This document shows, one piece after another, positions 35,098 through 58,704 of a stretch of DNA of 64,000 nucleotides. A program made the translations under genes and the position numbers. Numbering within the stretch: position 1 is the first letter of the stretch; every line of letters starts with the position of its first letter. The DNA lies in NCBI GenBank assembly GCA_016281495.1, contig JAEEIU010000038.1, positions 124,001-188,000 of the forward strand, written 5' to 3'. Below the pieces are notes generated by a model that worked only from the letters and a program-made list of their open reading frames with translations, was not told the DNA's origin and did no database searches. The stretch comes from Treponema sp. Lineage in GTDB: Bacteria > Spirochaetota > Spirochaetia > Treponematales > Treponemataceae.

Positions 35098-35239
35098 AAA
35101 AAAAAAGAGGAAGCCGTGGCTTCCCCTTTGCATTTTAGAGCTATCTATATTCACGTAAAGGAATATCAATGAATATAAAAGCATTTTACGGAAACTTAAA
35201 GTTTCCTTGTTAGCAGGTTGACTAGAAAAATTAATCAGT
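35098..35239 (-). ncRNA. tracrRNA of the type II-C CRISPR-Cas9 locus
   Basis: The anti-repeat occupies 35209-35238: on the minus strand CTGATTAATTTTTCTAGTCA onward is complementary to the first ~29 bases of the repeat in crRNA sense, with a mismatch or bulge at the AGCA/GCGG position. A promoter is in place upstream: TTGACA (complement of 35269-35274), 17 bp, TAAAGT (35246-35251), giving a start at about 35239, the first base before the anti-repeat. Downstream come a hairpin GGAAACT / AGTTTCC (35190-35206), a second ATATTCA / TGAATAT (35147-35176), and a terminator stem GGAAGC / GCTTCC (35109-35124) followed by nine T. Predicted length about 142 nt. Confidence 0.88.
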
Positions 35240-35245
35240 AATTTA

Positions 35246-35274
35246 ACTTTACATCTTTTTAACAGTTTTGTCAA
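35246..35274 (-). promoter_or_regulatory. tracrRNA promoter
   Basis: Minus strand: perfect TTGACA (35274-35269), 17-bp spacer, TAAAGT (35251-35246). Confidence 0.7.
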
Positions 35275-35336: not shown

Positions 35337-38300
35337 ATGAGATTAAACAAATGGCGTTTAGGCTTAGATTTAGGAACGAATTCAATTGGATGGAGCGTTT
35401 TTTCTTTGGACAGAGAAAACGCTGTTGAACAACTGATAGACATGGGCGTGCGTATTTTTTCTGACGGAAGAGATCCCAAAACAAAAGAACCTCTCGCCGT
35501 AGAACGAAGAAATGCAAGATCTCAAAGAAAACTCATTTACCGCAGGAAATTAAGAAGGAAACAGGCATTCAGATTGTTGCAATCTCAGGGACTTTTTCCC
35601 ACAAGAAAAGAAGAATGCATGGCTCTCAAATCATTAAATCCATATGAATTACGAATAAAAGCCCTTGACGAAAAACTTGAGCCCTTTGAACTAGGTAGAG
35701 CCCTGTTTAATCTAGCGGTAAGGAGAGGCTTTAAAAGCAATAGAAAAGATGGTAGCCGAGAAGAAACAACAGAAAAGAAAAATTCTGATGAAATAAAATC
35801 TCAAGCTGACATGCAGAGTAATCTTGAAAAAGCTATAAAAGAAAGCAACTGTAGAACAATAACAGAATTCTTGGTCATGAATGAAAAAGAAAACAAAGGA
35901 TTAAGATTTGTTCCAGGCAGAATGACTTACTATCCGACCAGAAAAATGTATGAAGAAGAGTTTGCCCAAATACAAAAAGAACAAATAAATCATTATCCAG
36001 ACATTGACTGGGATGCAATTCATAAAGCCATTTTTTATCAACGACCATTAAAAGCTCAAGCACGCGGATATTGCATTTTTGAAAATGACAAGGAAAGAAC
36101 TTTTAAGGCGATGCCTTGCTCACAAAAGCTTAGAATCCTACAGGATATAAAAAATCTTGCTTATTATGATTCTGCCAAGACAAAGAAAGAGCTTAATGAT
36201 GATCAGGATCATATCTTATATGAACTTTTTAATTCAAAAGATAAGATTTCTTTTGACCAGATCAGAAAAGCTCTTAGTCTTTCTGAAAACAACAGTTTTA
36301 ACCTTGAGGAAAACAGGGAATTCCTTATTGGTAATCCCACAGCGGTTAAAATGCGCAGCAAGAACCGTTTTGGAAAGCTTTGGGATGAAATTCCATTGGA
36401 AGAACAAGACCTAATAGTTGAAACTATAATTACTGCAGATGAAGATGAGCAGGTTTTAAAAGTATTGGAAAAATACAATCTTTCTCAAGAACAAAAAGAT
36501 TTTATAGTAAAAAATACTATACTACAGACTGGAACTGCAATGATCTGCAAAGAAGTTTCAGAAAAACTAGTAAAACGATTGGAAGAAATAGCTGATTTAA
36601 AATTTCATGAAGCCGTGCAATCGCTGGGTTATAAATATGCTGATCAGAGTGTGGAAAAATGCGATTTGCTACCCTATTATGGCAAAATCTTGACAGGTTC
36701 AACAATGGGCGTAAATCCATCTGAACCAGAGTCAATGCCAGAAAAAAGATATGGCAAAATAAGTAACCCGACTGTTCACGTAGCCTTAAACCAGACTCGT
36801 GTTGTTGTGAATGCATTGATCAAAGAGTATGGAAAGCCAAAGCAAATCGCTCTAGAATTAAGTCGGGATCTTAAGAACAGCGTACAAGAACGCGCTGAAA
36901 TTCAGAGAAAACAAAATCAAAGGGCCAAAGAAAACATTGTTATAAATAATACAATCGGAGAACTCTATAATACAGTATATCCAGGAAGAACATTCTATCC
37001 AAATAGAAATGACCGATTAAAATACAGGTTGTGGAAGGAATTGGGATTGGGAAACAAATGCCTCTATTGCGGGAAAGGTATAACAGCATCAGAGCTTTTT
37101 ACCAAAGAAATAGAAATTGAACATATCCTCCCCTTTAGCAGAACTCTTCTTGATGCTGAATCAAATCTTACCGTTGCCCATTCTTCATGTAACGCCTTTA
37201 AAGCAGAACACTCACCTTTTGAAGCATTTAGTTCAAATCCAAAAGGCTATAATTGGAGTGAAATAGTTGCCAGAGCCAATTTATTAAAGAATATATCAAA
37301 GAAGAACAAGTTTTCTCCTACAGCAATGGAAAGCTTTGAAAAAGATTCAAGTTTCATTACAAGACAGCTTTCGGACAATCAGTATATTGCAAAAGCTGCT
37401 CTCCGTTACTTAAAATGTCTTGTTGATAATCCTGCCGATGTTTGGGCCACAAATGGAAGCATGACAAAGATTCTAAGAGACAAATGGGAAATGGATTCTA
37501 TTCTTTGCCGCAAATTCACAGAAAAAGAAGTTGCATCCCTTGGTTTAAAACCTGAGCAGATAGGAAATTATAAGAAAAACCGCTATGACCACAGGCATCA
37601 TGCTGTAGATGCCGTTGTTATTGGCCTTACAGACAGAAGCCTTGTACAAAAGCTTGCGACAAAGAATTCTCATAAATCAAACAGAATTGAAATACCCGAA
37701 TTCCCGATTTTGCGAGCTGATTTGATTGAAAAGGTTAAGAAAATTGTCGTAAGTTTTAAGCCTGACCATGGTGCAGAGGGTAAGCTTTCTAAAGAGACTT
37801 TACTGGGAAAGATAAATGTACACGGAGAGGACAAATATGTCTGCCGTCAAAACCTTGTAACTCTTTCTGAGAAGAATCTAAATGACATTGTTGATGATAA
37901 GATAAGAAAAGATGTCATTGACTATGTTTATAACCATAAGGGAGAAAAAATTGATTCAATTCTGACGAAATTTTCAAATAAAACCGGAATTAAAAAAGTC
38001 CGTTGTATAAATCGTGTTCAGACACTAATAGAAATAAACTCCAATGGAATATCACGTTATCTGGCACCTGAGGACTATTTTGCCGCTATTATATGGGAAA
38101 TACCTGGAGAAAAGAAAACTTATAAAGCACAATATATAAGACGAAATGAAGTAGAAAAAAATGAAAAAGGCCAGAACGTTGTAAAACAGGAAGTATTAAC
38201 TAAGGGAAAACCTCATCCTGCCGCAAAACAAATATGCATGCTCCATAAAGATGATTATTTGGAGTTTACAGATAAAGGGAAAATGTATTTGTGTAGAATA

Positions 38301-38516
38301 GCGAGCTTTTCTGCAACAAACAATAAAATAGACATACGTCCAATTTATTCTGTAGCAGATAATTCAGATTGGATTTATTCTACAAATGAAACAATGCTAT
38401 CTGGATATTGGAAACCTATATCTGGTCATAACTGGATTTCTGTGAATGTTATGTTTTCACTGCTCAATGCACACCCGGTAACAGTTTCTCCAATTGGAAT
38501 AGTTCATCGGAAATAA
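35337..38516 (+). CDS. cas9: Cas9 endonuclease, type II-C
   Basis: 1059 residues, in the compact II-C range. RuvC-I is GLDLGTNSIGWSVF with Asp11. An Arg-rich bridge helix follows (RRNARSQRKLIYRRKLRRKQ). RuvC-II is QIALELSRD with Glu507. The HNH core is IEHILPFSR with catalytic His596; RuvC-III is YDHRHHAVDA with His755 and Asp758. All nuclease residues are intact. A CLYC pair precedes HNH and a third Cys lies in SSCNAFK, suggesting a zinc-bound HNH. DHRHHAVDA and the ending VSPIGIVHR recall alphaproteobacterial II-C Cas9 (Parvibaculum type). The gene is AT-rich compared with flanking genes; one sampled line (36181-36240) has 16 G/C in 60 bases. cas1 follows. Confidence 0.97.
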   Translation: MRLNKWRLGLDLGTNSIGWSVFSLDRENAVEQLIDMGVRIFSDGRDPKTKEPLAVERRNARSQRKLIYRRKLRRKQAFRLLQSQGLFPTRKEECMALKSLNPYELRIKALDEKLEPFELGRALFNLAVRRGFKSNRKDGSREETTEKKNSDEIKSQADMQSNLEKAIKESNCRTITEFLVMNEKENKGLRFVPGRMTYYPTRKMYEEEFAQIQKEQINHYPDIDWDAIHKAIFYQRPLKAQARGYCIFENDKERTFKAMPCSQKLRILQDIKNLAYYDSAKTKKELNDDQDHILYELFNSKDKISFDQIRKALSLSENNSFNLEENREFLIGNPTAVKMRSKNRFGKLWDEIPLEEQDLIVETIITADEDEQVLKVLEKYNLSQEQKDFIVKNTILQTGTAMICKEVSEKLVKRLEEIADLKFHEAVQSLGYKYADQSVEKCDLLPYYGKILTGSTMGVNPSEPESMPEKRYGKISNPTVHVALNQTRVVVNALIKEYGKPKQIALELSRDLKNSVQERAEIQRKQNQRAKENIVINNTIGELYNTVYPGRTFYPNRNDRLKYRLWKELGLGNKCLYCGKGITASELFTKEIEIEHILPFSRTLLDAESNLTVAHSSCNAFKAEHSPFEAFSSNPKGYNWSEIVARANLLKNISKKNKFSPTAMESFEKDSSFITRQLSDNQYIAKAALRYLKCLVDNPADVWATNGSMTKILRDKWEMDSILCRKFTEKEVASLGLKPEQIGNYKKNRYDHRHHAVDAVVIGLTDRSLVQKLATKNSHKSNRIEIPEFPILRADLIEKVKKIVVSFKPDHGAEGKLSKETLLGKINVHGEDKYVCRQNLVTLSEKNLNDIVDDKIRKDVIDYVYNHKGEKIDSILTKFSNKTGIKKVRCINRVQTLIEINSNGISRYLAPEDYFAAIIWEIPGEKKTYKAQYIRRNEVEKNEKGQNVVKQEVLTKGKPHPAAKQICMLHKDDYLEFTDKGKMYLCRIASFSATNNKIDIRPIYSVADNSDWIYSTNETMLSGYWKPISGHNWISVNVMFSLLNAHPVTVSPIGIVHRK

Positions 38517-38564
38517 TCTCTTTCTGCAATCAAATATTTGATTATTTATGCCGAAAAAATAATT

Positions 38565-39485
38565 GTGCTGAATAGAGTAATAGAGATTGCAGAAGAAAAC
38601 CGCTATCTTTCTCTAAAGCGTGGCTTTATGGTCGTCCAGCAGGGTGAACAGGAACTAGGGTCTGTACCATTGGACGATATTGCCGTTCTATTGCTTTCTG
38701 CACAGGGCATTACAATTACTAAAAATGTTTTAAATGCGCTATCGGAGCAAGGCTGCATCACTATTTTCTGTGGTTCAAATTATAAACCGGTCAGTATGGT
38801 TTTACCCATAGCAAGTCATACCTATTTTACAAAAATAATAAAAACACAGATAAATGCATCAGAACCTTTTAAAAAGAGAATCTGGCAGCAAATTGTCATT
38901 CAAAAAATAAAAAATCAGGCTTTAAGCCTCAAATACTGCAAAAGAGAAGATAACATTACCCTTGTTGAAAAAATTTCCAGAATGGTAAAATCCGGTGATC
39001 CAGATAACCGTGAAGCCTATGCAGCAAGAATGTACTGGAAATCTTTATTTGGAGACTCTTTTAAGCGGGACAAGGAGGGAGATGGCATTAATTCGTTTTT
39101 GAACTATGGATATGCCATAATGCGGGCAGGAATGGCAAGGGCAATATGCGCACACGGTTTAATTCCATCCCTTGGCATACATCATGATAACAACATGAAT
39201 CAATTTTGTTTGGCCGATGATTTTTTTGAAATATACAGGCCCATCGTAGATACCTTTGTTTATAAGCTTTTTGAAAATGGAGAAACAGAACTATCACCAG
39301 ACAACAAGAAGTTTTTGGCAACTATACTAAAAGTTAATGTTCATACTTCAGAAGGAGAGACAACTGCCGTTCAAAGTATGCAATATATGATGTCTTCTTT
39401 TGTAAATGCATTAGAAGAAGGGAAACCGGACATTGAATTACCCATTTGGGAAGGAAATGAAAATGGAATTACCATTATTGAATAG
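38565..39485 (+). CDS. cas1: Cas1 integrase, type II
   Basis: 306 residues from a GTG at 38565. That start aligns best with type II Cas1, which begins a few residues before the first strand (VIEIAEENRYLSLKRGFMVV); a TTG at 38538 would give 315 residues. No clear ribosome-binding site is seen for either. The conserved catalytic region includes EAYAARMYWKSLFG (Glu), ICAHGLIPSLGIHHDNNMN (His) and CLADDFFEIYRPIVD (Asp/Glu). With Cas2 it integrates new spacers. It starts 48 bp after cas9 and overlaps cas2. Confidence 0.95.
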   Translation: MLNRVIEIAEENRYLSLKRGFMVVQQGEQELGSVPLDDIAVLLLSAQGITITKNVLNALSEQGCITIFCGSNYKPVSMVLPIASHTYFTKIIKTQINASEPFKKRIWQQIVIQKIKNQALSLKYCKREDNITLVEKISRMVKSGDPDNREAYAARMYWKSLFGDSFKRDKEGDGINSFLNYGYAIMRAGMARAICAHGLIPSLGIHHDNNMNQFCLADDFFEIYRPIVDTFVYKLFENGETELSPDNKKFLATILKVNVHTSEGETTAVQSMQYMMSSFVNALEEGKPDIELPIWEGNENGITIIE

Positions 39486-39798
39486 GTATGAGCTTATGTG
39501 GATGATTGTTTTGTTTGATTTACCAGTCATTGAAAAAAAAGAAAGAAAGGACGCAAGTGATTTTAGAAAATTCCTTCTAAACCATGGTTTTTCCATGATT
39601 CAATACTCAATTTATACCAAGCTTTTTTCCGGCAAAGATTCTTGTGAAAAATACTATAAAATGATCAAAGAAAACTTGCCAAGAGAAGGAAAAGTCGATA
39701 TTATAACAATTACGGACAAGCAGTATGGCAATATCATCAGTTATCAATCTTCTGAAAAAGTCGAAAAAAAACAGCCTGAACAGCTCACATTATTCTGA
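39463..39798 (+). CDS. cas2: Cas2
   Basis: 111 residues from the ATG at 39463, which has GGAAGGAA 8 bp upstream; the frame is open back to 39433. The first strand MIVLFDLPV has the conserved Asp. FLLNHGFSMIQYSIYTKLFSG and the C-terminal dimer strands follow. It overlaps cas1 by 23 bp. No csn2 or cas4 follows, which makes the locus type II-C. The array begins 68 bp downstream. Confidence 0.95.
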   Translation: MELPLLNRYELMWMIVLFDLPVIEKKERKDASDFRKFLLNHGFSMIQYSIYTKLFSGKDSCEKYYKMIKENLPREGKVDIITITDKQYGNIISYQSSEKVEKKQPEQLTLF

Positions 39799-39807
39799 TT
39801 TTTCCGT

Positions 39808-39868
39808 AAAAAAAATACGCCTGACACAACCTAATTCATTATTTTACAAGAGGTTATATCAGACGTAT
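39808..39868 (-). terminator. Terminator of the CRISPR array transcripts
   Basis: Read on the minus strand (leftwards out of the array): ATACGTCTGA (39868-39859) pairs with TCAGGCGTAT (39824-39815), one mismatch-type G-T. Inside, AACCT and AGGTT pair again. Eight T residues follow (complement of 39808-39815). This places the end of array transcription between cas2 and the first repeat. Confidence 0.75.
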
Positions 39869-40826
39869 TATACCTGATTAATTTTTCCAGTCAACCCGCA
39901 ACGCATCGATACGTTAAATCTTGTAGGTTGAAATTATACCTGATTAATTTTTCCAGTCAACCCGCAACGTATTTTTCCTTGTATTATAAGAAAGAAAAAT
40001 TATACCTGATTAATTTTTCCAGTCAACCCGCAACCGACGACATTACGGGGCTGTCTGCAGTCGCATTATACCTGATTAATTTTTCCAGTCAACCCGCAAC
40101 CACCACCGATGGTTCTTTGTCTCATTGTGAATTATACCTGATTAATTTTTCCAGTCAACCCGCAACACATCATCAGCTTTCACAATTTCTGACCTTATTA
40201 TACCTGATTAATTTTTCCAGTCAACCCGCAACAATAAAGGAGGTAACCTTTACGAAGGTTATATTATACCTGATTAATTTTTCCAGTCAACCCGCAACGA
40301 ACATGGCAGATTTCTACAGCTGGAACATATTATACCTGATTAATTTTTCCAGTCAACCCGCAACTATGCGGACCGTACCAATTCTACACAGAATATTATA
40401 CCTGATTAATTTTTCCAGTCAACCCGCAACATAATAAGTCTTGTTTTCAGCATCAATTGAATTATACCTGATTAATTTTTCCAGTCAACCCGCAACGATA
40501 AGGGAACAAGATTGTATTATTGCTCTATTATACCTGATTAATTTTTCCAGTCAACCCGCAACAAGAAATTGTAACAGTTGTTCCAATGTTCAATTATACC
40601 TGATTAATTTTTCCAGTCAACCCGCAACACAATTGATTCTGAGGGTGTTGAAGTTTCTATTATACCTGATTAATTTTTCCAGTCAACCCGCAACGAAAGA
40701 ATACAACGCTCATATTCGACAATAATTATACCTGATTAATTTTTCCAGTCAACCCGCAACAAAGCATACTAAAACAATACAAGTCGCGGAATTATACCTG
40801 ATTAATTTTTCCAGTCAATTCATTAA
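39867..40826 (-). CRISPR. CRISPR array: 15 repeats of 36 bp, 14 spacers of 30 bp
   Basis: Repeats start at 39867 and every 66 bp to 40791. The first 14 are identical; the 15th (40791-40826) matches only to 40818. All 14 spacers are exactly 30 bp and all differ. The crRNA strand is minus: there the repeat begins GTTGCGGG, complementary to the tracrRNA anti-repeat, and ends GGTATAAT. Within each repeat TTGACT and TATAAT are 16 bp apart, an internal promoter for the spacer that follows. A start 7 bases after the -10 leaves 24-nt guides. The rightmost, degenerate repeat is therefore first in transcription order. Confidence 0.98.
40791..40818 (-). promoter_or_regulatory. Promoter kept inside the degenerate terminal repeat
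   Basis: Minus strand: TTGACT (complement of 40813-40818) and TATAAT (complement of 40792-40797... last repeat bases) are intact while the eight bases upstream, GTTGCGGG in other repeats, read GTTAATGA. Confidence 0.8.
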
Positions 40827-40839
40827 CTTTTTAAAGCTC

Positions 40840-40868
40840 TTGACATACGTATTAAATACGTGTAAAAT
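40840..40868 (+). promoter_or_regulatory. hicAB promoter with palindromic operator
   Basis: TTGACA (40840-40845), 17-bp spacer, TAAAAT (40863-40868). The spacer holds ACGTATT-A-AATACGT (40847-40861), a perfect 7-bp inverted repeat with a one-base centre, as expected for binding of a ribbon-helix-helix antitoxin. Confidence 0.8.
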
Positions 40869-40887: not shown

Positions 40888-41064
40888 ATGACTAAGCTTG
40901 AAATTGAACGGAAGTTCAAGAAAGCCGGCTGGAAAATCGTTCACGGTGCGGCGCATGACCTTGCGGTAAGTCCAACAGGTCAGAAAGTACCGCTTCCACG
41001 CCATGCAGGAGATATACCGACGGGTACAGCTCAAAAAATCCTTAAACAGGGCAACCTGAAATAG
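40888..41064 (+). CDS. hicA: HicA-family mRNA interferase toxin
   Basis: 58 residues from the ATG at 40888, preceded by GGGGG-AACGAG; an in-frame GTA/TTG-type extension to 40840 would run through the promoter. The fold is the small dsRBD-like HicA: KKAGWKIVHGAAHDLAV carries the catalytic His, followed by VPLPRH and GTAQKILKQ. HicA cleaves mRNA when not bound by HicB. It lies directly upstream of hicB and 70 bp from the array end. Confidence 0.9.
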   Translation: MTKLEIERKFKKAGWKIVHGAAHDLAVSPTGQKVPLPRHAGDIPTGTAQKILKQGNLK

Positions 41065-41111
41065 GGTTTTCTGGTGGGCAGAAATGCCCGCCTTTTCTTG
41101 GAGGTTTTTAC

Positions 41112-41504
41112 ATGAAGTATGTTTATCCTGTTATTTTTGAAGAGGACGATGGGAAAATAGGTGTTACTGTACCTGATATTCCATCAACATTTACATTCGG
41201 AGATGATATGGCAGACGCTATTTACATGGCACAGGATGTCATTGCCATGATGATTGCATCCTGCTATGAGGATGAAGGAAAAGAGCCTCCTAAGCCCAGC
41301 AAAATTGAGGACATAAAGACAACCGGCATAGTCTCTCTTGTTGTGGCGGATACTGATGAATGGCGAAAACTGGTAGACAATAAAGCTATAAAGAAAACCT
41401 TAACCATACCAAGCTGGCTCAACAGAAAAGCAGAAAATGCTGCCATCAATTTCAGTCAAGTTTTGCAGGAAGCCCTCTGTAAGAAACTGAAAATTTCACT
41501 ATAA
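41112..41504 (+). CDS. hicB: HicB-family antitoxin
   Basis: 130 residues. The N-terminal partial RNase-H-like domain (YPVIFEEDDGKIGVTVPDIP, FGDDMADAIYMAQDVIAMMI) binds HicA. The C-terminus (KKTLTIPSWLNRKAENAAIN, then SQVLQEAL) is a ribbon-helix-helix DNA-binding domain, suited to the palindrome in the hicA promoter. TTGGAGG precedes the ATG. It follows hicA by 47 bp; its stop faces the convergent pseudouridine synthase gene 6 bp away. Confidence 0.92.
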   Translation: MKYVYPVIFEEDDGKIGVTVPDIPSTFTFGDDMADAIYMAQDVIAMMIASCYEDEGKEPPKPSKIEDIKTTGIVSLVVADTDEWRKLVDNKAIKKTLTIPSWLNRKAENAAINFSQVLQEALCKKLKISL

Positions 41505-57957: not shown

Positions 57958-58704
57958 CTATTCAATCTTCAGGATTTTACATGCAGCTCTGGCAGCTTCC
58001 TGTTCCGCGGCCTTTTTGCTTTTTCCACTCTCAGGGCCATAGGATGTGTTTCCCAGGTGTACGGTCACCCAGAATGTCTTGTCGTGATCGGGACCCGTCA
58101 TTTTTACAAGCTCATATCCCGGACACTCACGGTACTTTTTCTGATAGTATTCCTGCAAAAGTGACTTGTAATCCTTGTTTCCCTTGTCCTGCTGCACCTT
58201 GCGTATTTCAGGGACAATCAGCTTAAGGACGAGTTTTTCCGCCGCCTCGTATCCTGAATCAAGGTACAGGGCTCCTATGACGGCCTCCACGGCATCTGCA
58301 AGAATCGCGGGCTTTTCCCTTCCACCAGACATTTCCTCACCCTTTCCAAGGATAAGATACTGGTCTATGTGCATCACGTTTTTTGCTATTGGAGCAAGGG
58401 ATTTTTCGCTTACAACGTTTGCCTTTATCTTTGCAAGGTCACCCTCGGGATTGTCCATCATGTCCTCGTAAAGGAATGCGGCCGTAACAAGCCCCAGCAC
58501 TGAGTCACCGAGGAATTCCAGCCTCTCGTTGTTGTAGCGCCTATGCTCGGTATTTTCGTTGGAGAATGACCTGTGGTGAAAGGCCAGATCCAGAAGGTTC
58601 AGGTTGGAGAAAGAAAGCCCAAGTTCCCTGCAGAATGTTTTGAGGGCCTTTTTGCGCTCCGGGTCAAGCTTCTTTTTCTCGTAAAACAAATCGCGTGCGT
58701 TCAT
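57958..58704 (-). CDS. rnc: Ribonuclease III
   Basis: 248 residues from the ATG at 58704 (MNARDLFYEKK); the frame is open to 58725 but that part lies in the acpP terminator. The catalytic signature NERLEFLGDSVLGLV is near residue 59, the second acidic site is ILADAVEAVIGALY, and a C-terminal dsRBD ends the protein. RNase III is also the enzyme that trims crRNA-tracrRNA duplexes in many type II systems, which links this gene to the CRISPR locus in function only. Confidence 0.95.
   Translation of the reverse strand: MNARDLFYEKKKLDPERKKALKTFCRELGLSFSNLNLLDLAFHHRSFSNENTEHRRYNNERLEFLGDSVLGLVTAAFLYEDMMDNPEGDLAKIKANVVSEKSLAPIAKNVMHIDQYLILGKGEEMSGGREKPAILADAVEAVIGALYLDSGYEAAEKLVLKLIVPEIRKVQQDKGNKDYKSLLQEYYQKKYRECPGYELVKMTGPDHDKTFWVTVHLGNTSYGPESGKSKKAAEQEAARAACKILKIE

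Follow-up and report, generated by a model that had tools for sequence, protein, structure and literature searches.

The window analyzed here, a 64-kb stretch of Treponema DNA, contains a complete type II-C CRISPR-Cas9 system consisting of cas9, cas1, and cas2, a tracrRNA encoded divergently upstream of cas9, and an array oriented opposite to the three cas genes. A spirochaete host had been predicted from the letters alone, and the locus does lie in a Treponema. No csn2, cas4, or any further gene was found between cas9 and the array, and cas2 directly precedes the array. An RNase III gene is encoded in the same window. The features are as follows.

35104-35129, minus strand: predicted tracrRNA terminator, an 11-bp stem followed by a T tract
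35209-35238, minus strand: tracrRNA anti-repeat, which pairs with positions 1-29 of the repeat, TATAAT remaining unpaired
35246-35274, minus strand: predicted tracrRNA promoter, TTGACA-17-TAAAGT
35337-38516, plus strand: cas9, 1059 aa (TIGR01865, 550 bits against a cut-off of 100)
38538-39485, plus strand: cas1, type II (TIGR03639)
39433-39798, plus strand: cas2 (TIGR01573)
39808-39866, minus strand: leader-end hairpin and T tract, read as an intrinsic terminator, beginning at the first base past the last repeat
39867-39902, minus strand: leader-side (newest) repeat, perfect and with no spacer after it; its promoter points at cas2, with a predicted start near 39860
39867-40826, minus strand: type II-C CRISPR array, 15 repeats (36 bp each) and 14 spacers (30 bp each), repeating every 66 bp exactly
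40791-40826, minus strand: outermost repeat, degenerate, changed at positions 1, 3, 4, 5, 7, and 8; positions 9-36, the whole promoter, are exact
57976-58629, minus strand: RNase III gene (TIGR02191, 253 bits)

The same system was present in relatives of the same genus, with Cas9 identities of up to 81-82%. Comparison of the 18-19-nt 3' ends of five spacers with viral contigs gave only chance-like partial matches, of at most 24/30. The Cas9 profile also had a weak second match in the same genome, over its HNH region (G000:C53:34528-34803), in a 349-aa open frame that is possibly another HNH protein. The genes hicA (PF07927) and hicB (PF15919), at 40888-41504 on the plus strand, begin approximately 60 bp past the outermost repeat, face away from the array, and have their own promoter at 40840-40868. 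A ParDE pair is described for the II-C locus of F. columnare (PMC8092290), and toxin-antitoxin neighbors of II-C arrays may recur.

The repeat-borne promoter sequence and known type II-C systems

On the minus strand, the repeat reads GTTGCGGGTTGACTGGAAAAATTAATCAGGTATAAT. Fourteen of the 15 repeats were identical, the odd one being the outermost copy, and all 14 spacers were exactly 30 bp long. In every repeat (15/15), positions 9-14 read TTGACT and, after a gap of 16 bp, positions 31-36, the last six bases, read TATAAT, which together match the sigma-70 consensus at 11 of 12 positions. Among 200,000 shuffled repeats, 40 had a site of at least 11/12 with a spacing of 16-18 bp, and 177 had a TATAAT end. 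The array holds 15 of the 11/12 sites, all on the minus strand, compared to only nine in the rest of the window, and no promoter site of this level was found on the plus strand inside the array. Because one sequence has been copied 15 times, there is a single coincidence to account for and not 15, and the decisive evidence therefore has to be comparative.

The repeat-promoter mode is marked by a -10 box at the repeat 3' end, and here all repeats have one. The box is preceded by AGG and lacks the TG found in extended -10 boxes. The TTGACT hexamer is weaker evidence, since it falls within the core that pairs with tracrRNA and is conserved on that account; its likeness to a -35 box may partly be a by-product of this pairing stretch, and its own contribution is unproven. 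The original prediction had placed this promoter in each minus-strand repeat, with a start 7 nt past the -10 box, at spacer position 7, leaving 24 nt of each spacer. The promoter sequence was confirmed and the arithmetic holds; a purine was found at spacer position 7 in only 5 of the 14 spacers, so starts may shift by one or two bases. The 14 starts expected then have to be corrected to 15, as there are 15 promoters, one of them in the spacer-less repeat by cas2.

The anti-repeat ends at repeat position 29, and co-folding (-44.4 kcal/mol) left TATAAT outside the repeat:anti-repeat helix. A general rule that TATAAT is unpaired with tracrRNA was rejected, because the anti-repeat reaches positions 33-36 in several other loci.

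Synthesis of crRNAs from repeat promoters is an already published II-C mode (C. jejuni, N. meningitidis), to which the Treponema array adds a member. Campylobacter jejuni (Dugar et al. 2013, PMC3656092) resembles Treponema in having cas9-cas1-cas2 only, a tracrRNA that pairs with the repeat, and a repeat 3' end that forms a -10 box (GGTAAAAT). Its transcripts were shown to start within the spacers, at position 5, whereas in Treponema they are predicted near position 7. The C. jejuni box was described as an extended -10 box, whereas Treponema has a perfect TATAAT without TG and with the -35-like TTGACT; the repeat sequences differ, and strain NCTC 11168 has four spacers compared to 14 here. According to three reports (PMC5052741, PMC5006608, PMC7038990), Neisseria meningitidis likewise has a promoter within each repeat and an array opposite to the cas genes, and its short crRNAs, whose transcripts were mapped, are made directly. 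In Clostridium cellulolyticum H10, which belongs to another phylum, the last nine repeat bases resemble an extended -10 box and the array is opposite to the cas genes, as in Treponema; sequencing of small RNAs after expression in E. coli revealed crRNAs with 23-26 nt of spacer (PMC7038990). Studies of Flavobacterium columnare and F. psychrophilum (PMC8092290, PMC10309648) describe repeat-encoded promoters that transcribe toward the leader, the direction also read in Treponema.

The predicted likeness to Neisseria and Campylobacter, with one promoter per repeat, is well supported by comparison of the sequences, although some details that came with it need correction. That crRNAs would arise without RNase III is too strong, since RNase III makes the crRNA 3' end in C. 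jejuni (PMC3656092) and, in N. meningitidis, acts but is dispensable (PMC5052741). The array had also been correctly read as opposite to the cas genes, but this is no peculiarity: it is the rule in type II-C (PMC3936727) and was seen in 54 of 54 arrays from named loci. The presence of an RNase III gene in the window makes 3' processing of the crRNA likely, and its product is probably the trimmer of crRNA-tracrRNA duplex 3' ends. Nor is the repeat unrelated to others, as had been proposed, because a GTTG 5' core and a TAnnnT end are common to II-C repeats of many phyla. With the Treponema repeat, the Neisseria repeat presumably has only these two elements in common, GTTG at the start and TAnnnT at the end.

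Repeat ends across phyla

The arrays of Treponema relatives and of other spirochaetes, together with those of named genomes from many phyla, gave 54 non-redundant II-C repeats; many of the compared genomes were metagenome assemblies. TAnnnT was found at positions 31-36 in 46 of the 54, compared to 1.4 expected and a maximum of 6 in 2000 shuffles, and on the other strand in none (0/54). The base frequencies were T31 94%, A32 96%, T33 30%, A34 76%, A35 50%, and T36 89%, and G29, at the -14 position, occurred in 87%. These preferences are those of a -10 box and support the reading of II-C repeat ends as promoter elements. The TG of an extended -10 box was present in only 24 of the 54 repeats, so TG does not define the repeat-promoter mode. 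A trade-off between TG and -35 strength was considered and dropped, because repeats with TG had a mean of 3.6 matches to the -35 box and those with only G a mean of 3.9, which is not a clear effect. One exception to the pattern within the genus is the metagenome-assembled Treponema genome Th196P3bin148 (L125), whose II-C repeat ends in AAACTGTATT, without TAnnnT in register.

The primary sigma factor of Bacteroidota recognizes TAnnTTTG at -7 and TTTG at -33 (PMC7366714). Our Bacteroidota set comprised 23 II-C repeats, including one from an Ignavibacteria locus (L198); they had a similar 5' core, of the GTTGTGATTTGC type, and were mostly 44-47 bp long. TAnnnT at positions 31-36 was found in 2 of the 23, compared to 45/53 elsewhere. 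Six of the 23 carried a perfect TAnnTTTG with TTG 17-22 bp upstream (0.07 in shuffles, 0.16 with the core kept), and 14 of the 23 carried TAnnTTTG and the upstream TTG at a level of at least 5/6 (0.96 expected, 2.2 with the core kept). Nine repeats fell below 5/6, two of them having TAnnnT, so the sigma-motif rule has exceptions. For L222 and L185, whose repeats are of the other class, transfer or misassigned contigs could be the explanation. L222 is a short contig in the Bacteroidia sample with the repeat GTTGTAGCTCCC...GGCTACAAT, which may reflect transfer or contamination and which we take to resemble the Neisseria repeat.

In Riemerella, whose II-C repeats are 47 bp long, a study found no repeat promoter and put forward another pathway (PMC5006608). 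The accessible parts of the Flavobacterium studies (PMC8092290, PMC10309648) name only a TTG approximately 33 bp upstream of the spacers and do not report TAnnTTTG, which was found here in Bacteroidota repeats; our literature search likewise found no earlier report of TAnnTTTG in CRISPR repeats. That many Bacteroidota repeats carry the Bacteroidota sigma motif offers an answer to the Riemerella puzzle.

The two ends of the array

None of the array's crRNAs takes its handle from the outermost, oldest repeat, which can serve only to start the oldest crRNA. Among 28 listed outermost II-C repeats, two of which are intact copies from split arrays, positions 1-8 were kept in 46% of cells and positions 31-36 in 99%. 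Little of the L051 end repeat was kept except CAGTTATAAT, exactly 30 bp ahead of the next repeat, and the -35 was lost in some decayed end repeats. Feussner et al. (PMC12080349) report that mutations of the outermost repeat concentrate in the first 15 nt and suggest that this repeat must keep its promoter, in line with our end repeats. Since repeats decaying from the outer edge inward would show a similar gradient, the retention pattern is support and not proof.

At the leader side, the hairpin that follows the spacer-less repeat has a 16-17-bp stem and then eight T on the minus strand (z -5.8). A hairpin in the same register, with no base between it and the leader-side repeat, was found in 14 Treponema loci, with compensatory changes in 10 of 16 pairs and a covariation score of 0.419, compared to 0.287 when shuffled and at most 0.144 when slid; the T tract downstream was nearly invariable among these loci. 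Outside the Bacteroidia sample, 19 of the 55 non-redundant II-C loci had a terminator-like site beyond the last repeat, compared to 3.3 expected, under a relaxed search rule that was set after the hairpins had been seen. The control counts were 8 against 2.7 expected on the other strand and 3/38 against 1.9 upstream of the array. The Bacteroidota sites showed no strand preference (7 and 9 of 22 on the two strands), and the terminator claim is therefore confined to Treponema and some others; the idea that every II-C locus has a terminator at this place was rejected, since 19/55 loci of mixed phyla had one. Feussner et al. (PMC12080349), in the part available, studied terminators upstream of II-C arrays, and that part held no treatment of the leader-side end that we could find.

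Transcription from the spacer-less promoter would end at this hairpin instead of continuing antisense into cas2 and cas1. A fifteenth promoter capped in this way would explain how an outward-firing array sits tail to tail with its cas operon.

Proposed crRNA synthesis and alternative explanations

We propose, with a probability of close to 0.9, that each repeat serves as the promoter of the next spacer in a complete type II-C CRISPR-Cas9 system whose array is probably functional. The -10 profile of II-C repeats, the decayed end repeats, the limit of the anti-repeat, and the motif switch in Bacteroidota all support this function. RNA polymerase with the housekeeping sigma factor would bind the -10 box at the repeat 3' end, aided by TTGACT 16 bp upstream, and start approximately 6-8 nt into the spacer, producing an RNA with a guide of approximately 24 nt followed by the next repeat. 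The tracrRNA, transcribed from the divergent promoter upstream of cas9, would pair with repeat positions 1-29; RNase III would probably trim the 3' end, and Cas9 would bind the repeat:tracrRNA duplex. Spacers are expected to join at the cas2 side, which leaves the newest repeat without a spacer, so that its promoter would fire into the leader. The hairpin terminator there would end the spacer-less RNA after approximately 50 nt, before it becomes antisense to cas2-cas1. Repeat-driven crRNA synthesis would in this way be extended to Treponema, with comparative support.

The TATAAT end might instead be conserved for recognition by Cas1-Cas2, which would act at the repeat 3' end, the leader-side end; the promoter likeness would then be incidental and the array transcribed from elsewhere. 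The newest type II-C spacer is added at the TATAAT end (PMC12080349), and the sequence of the leader-repeat junction matters for insertion in the II-A system of S. thermophilus (PMC8092290). The conserved positions, however, are those of a -10 box (T-12, A-11, T-7, and G-14), with position 33 nearly uninformative, and many Bacteroidota ends differ and carry another promoter motif further inside the repeat. A conserved end that follows the host transcription machinery would not be expected of a mere integrase site, and the outermost repeat, at which no insertion occurs, retains precisely the TATAAT part; we consider this explanation very improbable. Scarcely any weight is given to transcription of the array as one precursor from a conventional end promoter, with internal promoters weak or silent. 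Outside type II-C, arrays are as a rule transcribed as a single precursor, and a leader site, TTTACA-17-TATTAT (10/12), is directed into the array on the plus strand. This candidate promoter was nevertheless rejected, because its -35 lies in the variable hairpin loop and is not conserved. RNA of the plus strand would also be antisense to the partner that pairs with tracrRNA, the T tract of the leader hairpin is on the minus strand, and no minus-strand promoter of at least 9/12 was found between the array and hicA.

A different doubt concerns the terminator step only. The hairpin might be part of the integration leader, for example an acquisition cruciform, since in 14 relatives it starts right after the leader-side repeat, where the integrase must bind, and in Riemerella the corresponding leader contains a palindrome that has been called a leader feature (PMC5006608). 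The compensatory changes and the near-invariable T tract, however, are what a terminator needs, and the excess of terminator-like sites after the last repeat (19/55) points the same way. This possibility appears plausible but unlikely, and termination is the preferred reading of the hairpin.

The more interesting part of the evidence concerns how repeat promoters follow the sigma factor of their host and how the leader-side promoter is capped. The comparisons lead us to favor, with some reserve, a view in which II-C repeats are portable promoters tuned to the host primary sigma factor, with TAnnnT for sigma-70-type factors, TAnnTTTG and an upstream TTG in Bacteroidota, and a similar tracrRNA-pairing 5' core, and in which Treponema and some of the other lineages cap the unavoidable spacer-less promoter by cas2 with a terminator of its own whose structure is conserved. 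Should a match between repeats and host sigma factor be required, movement of a II-C system between phyla would need all repeats to be changed, which would limit horizontal transfer.

Other arrangements were seen among the compared loci. Loci L058-L068 of the same genus carry a second Cas9 family, approximately 1260 aa long, and their repeats differ (for example, GTTGTGGTTTGATTTC...GATGTAAAATAAT); in several of these loci a -10-like motif is shifted by a few bases relative to the TATAAT of the window's family. In L049 (7956-10101), the array runs in the same direction as cas9; its degenerate repeat is the one closest to cas9 and its leader hairpin lies at the opposite end, as would result from inversion of the adaptation genes and array as a block.
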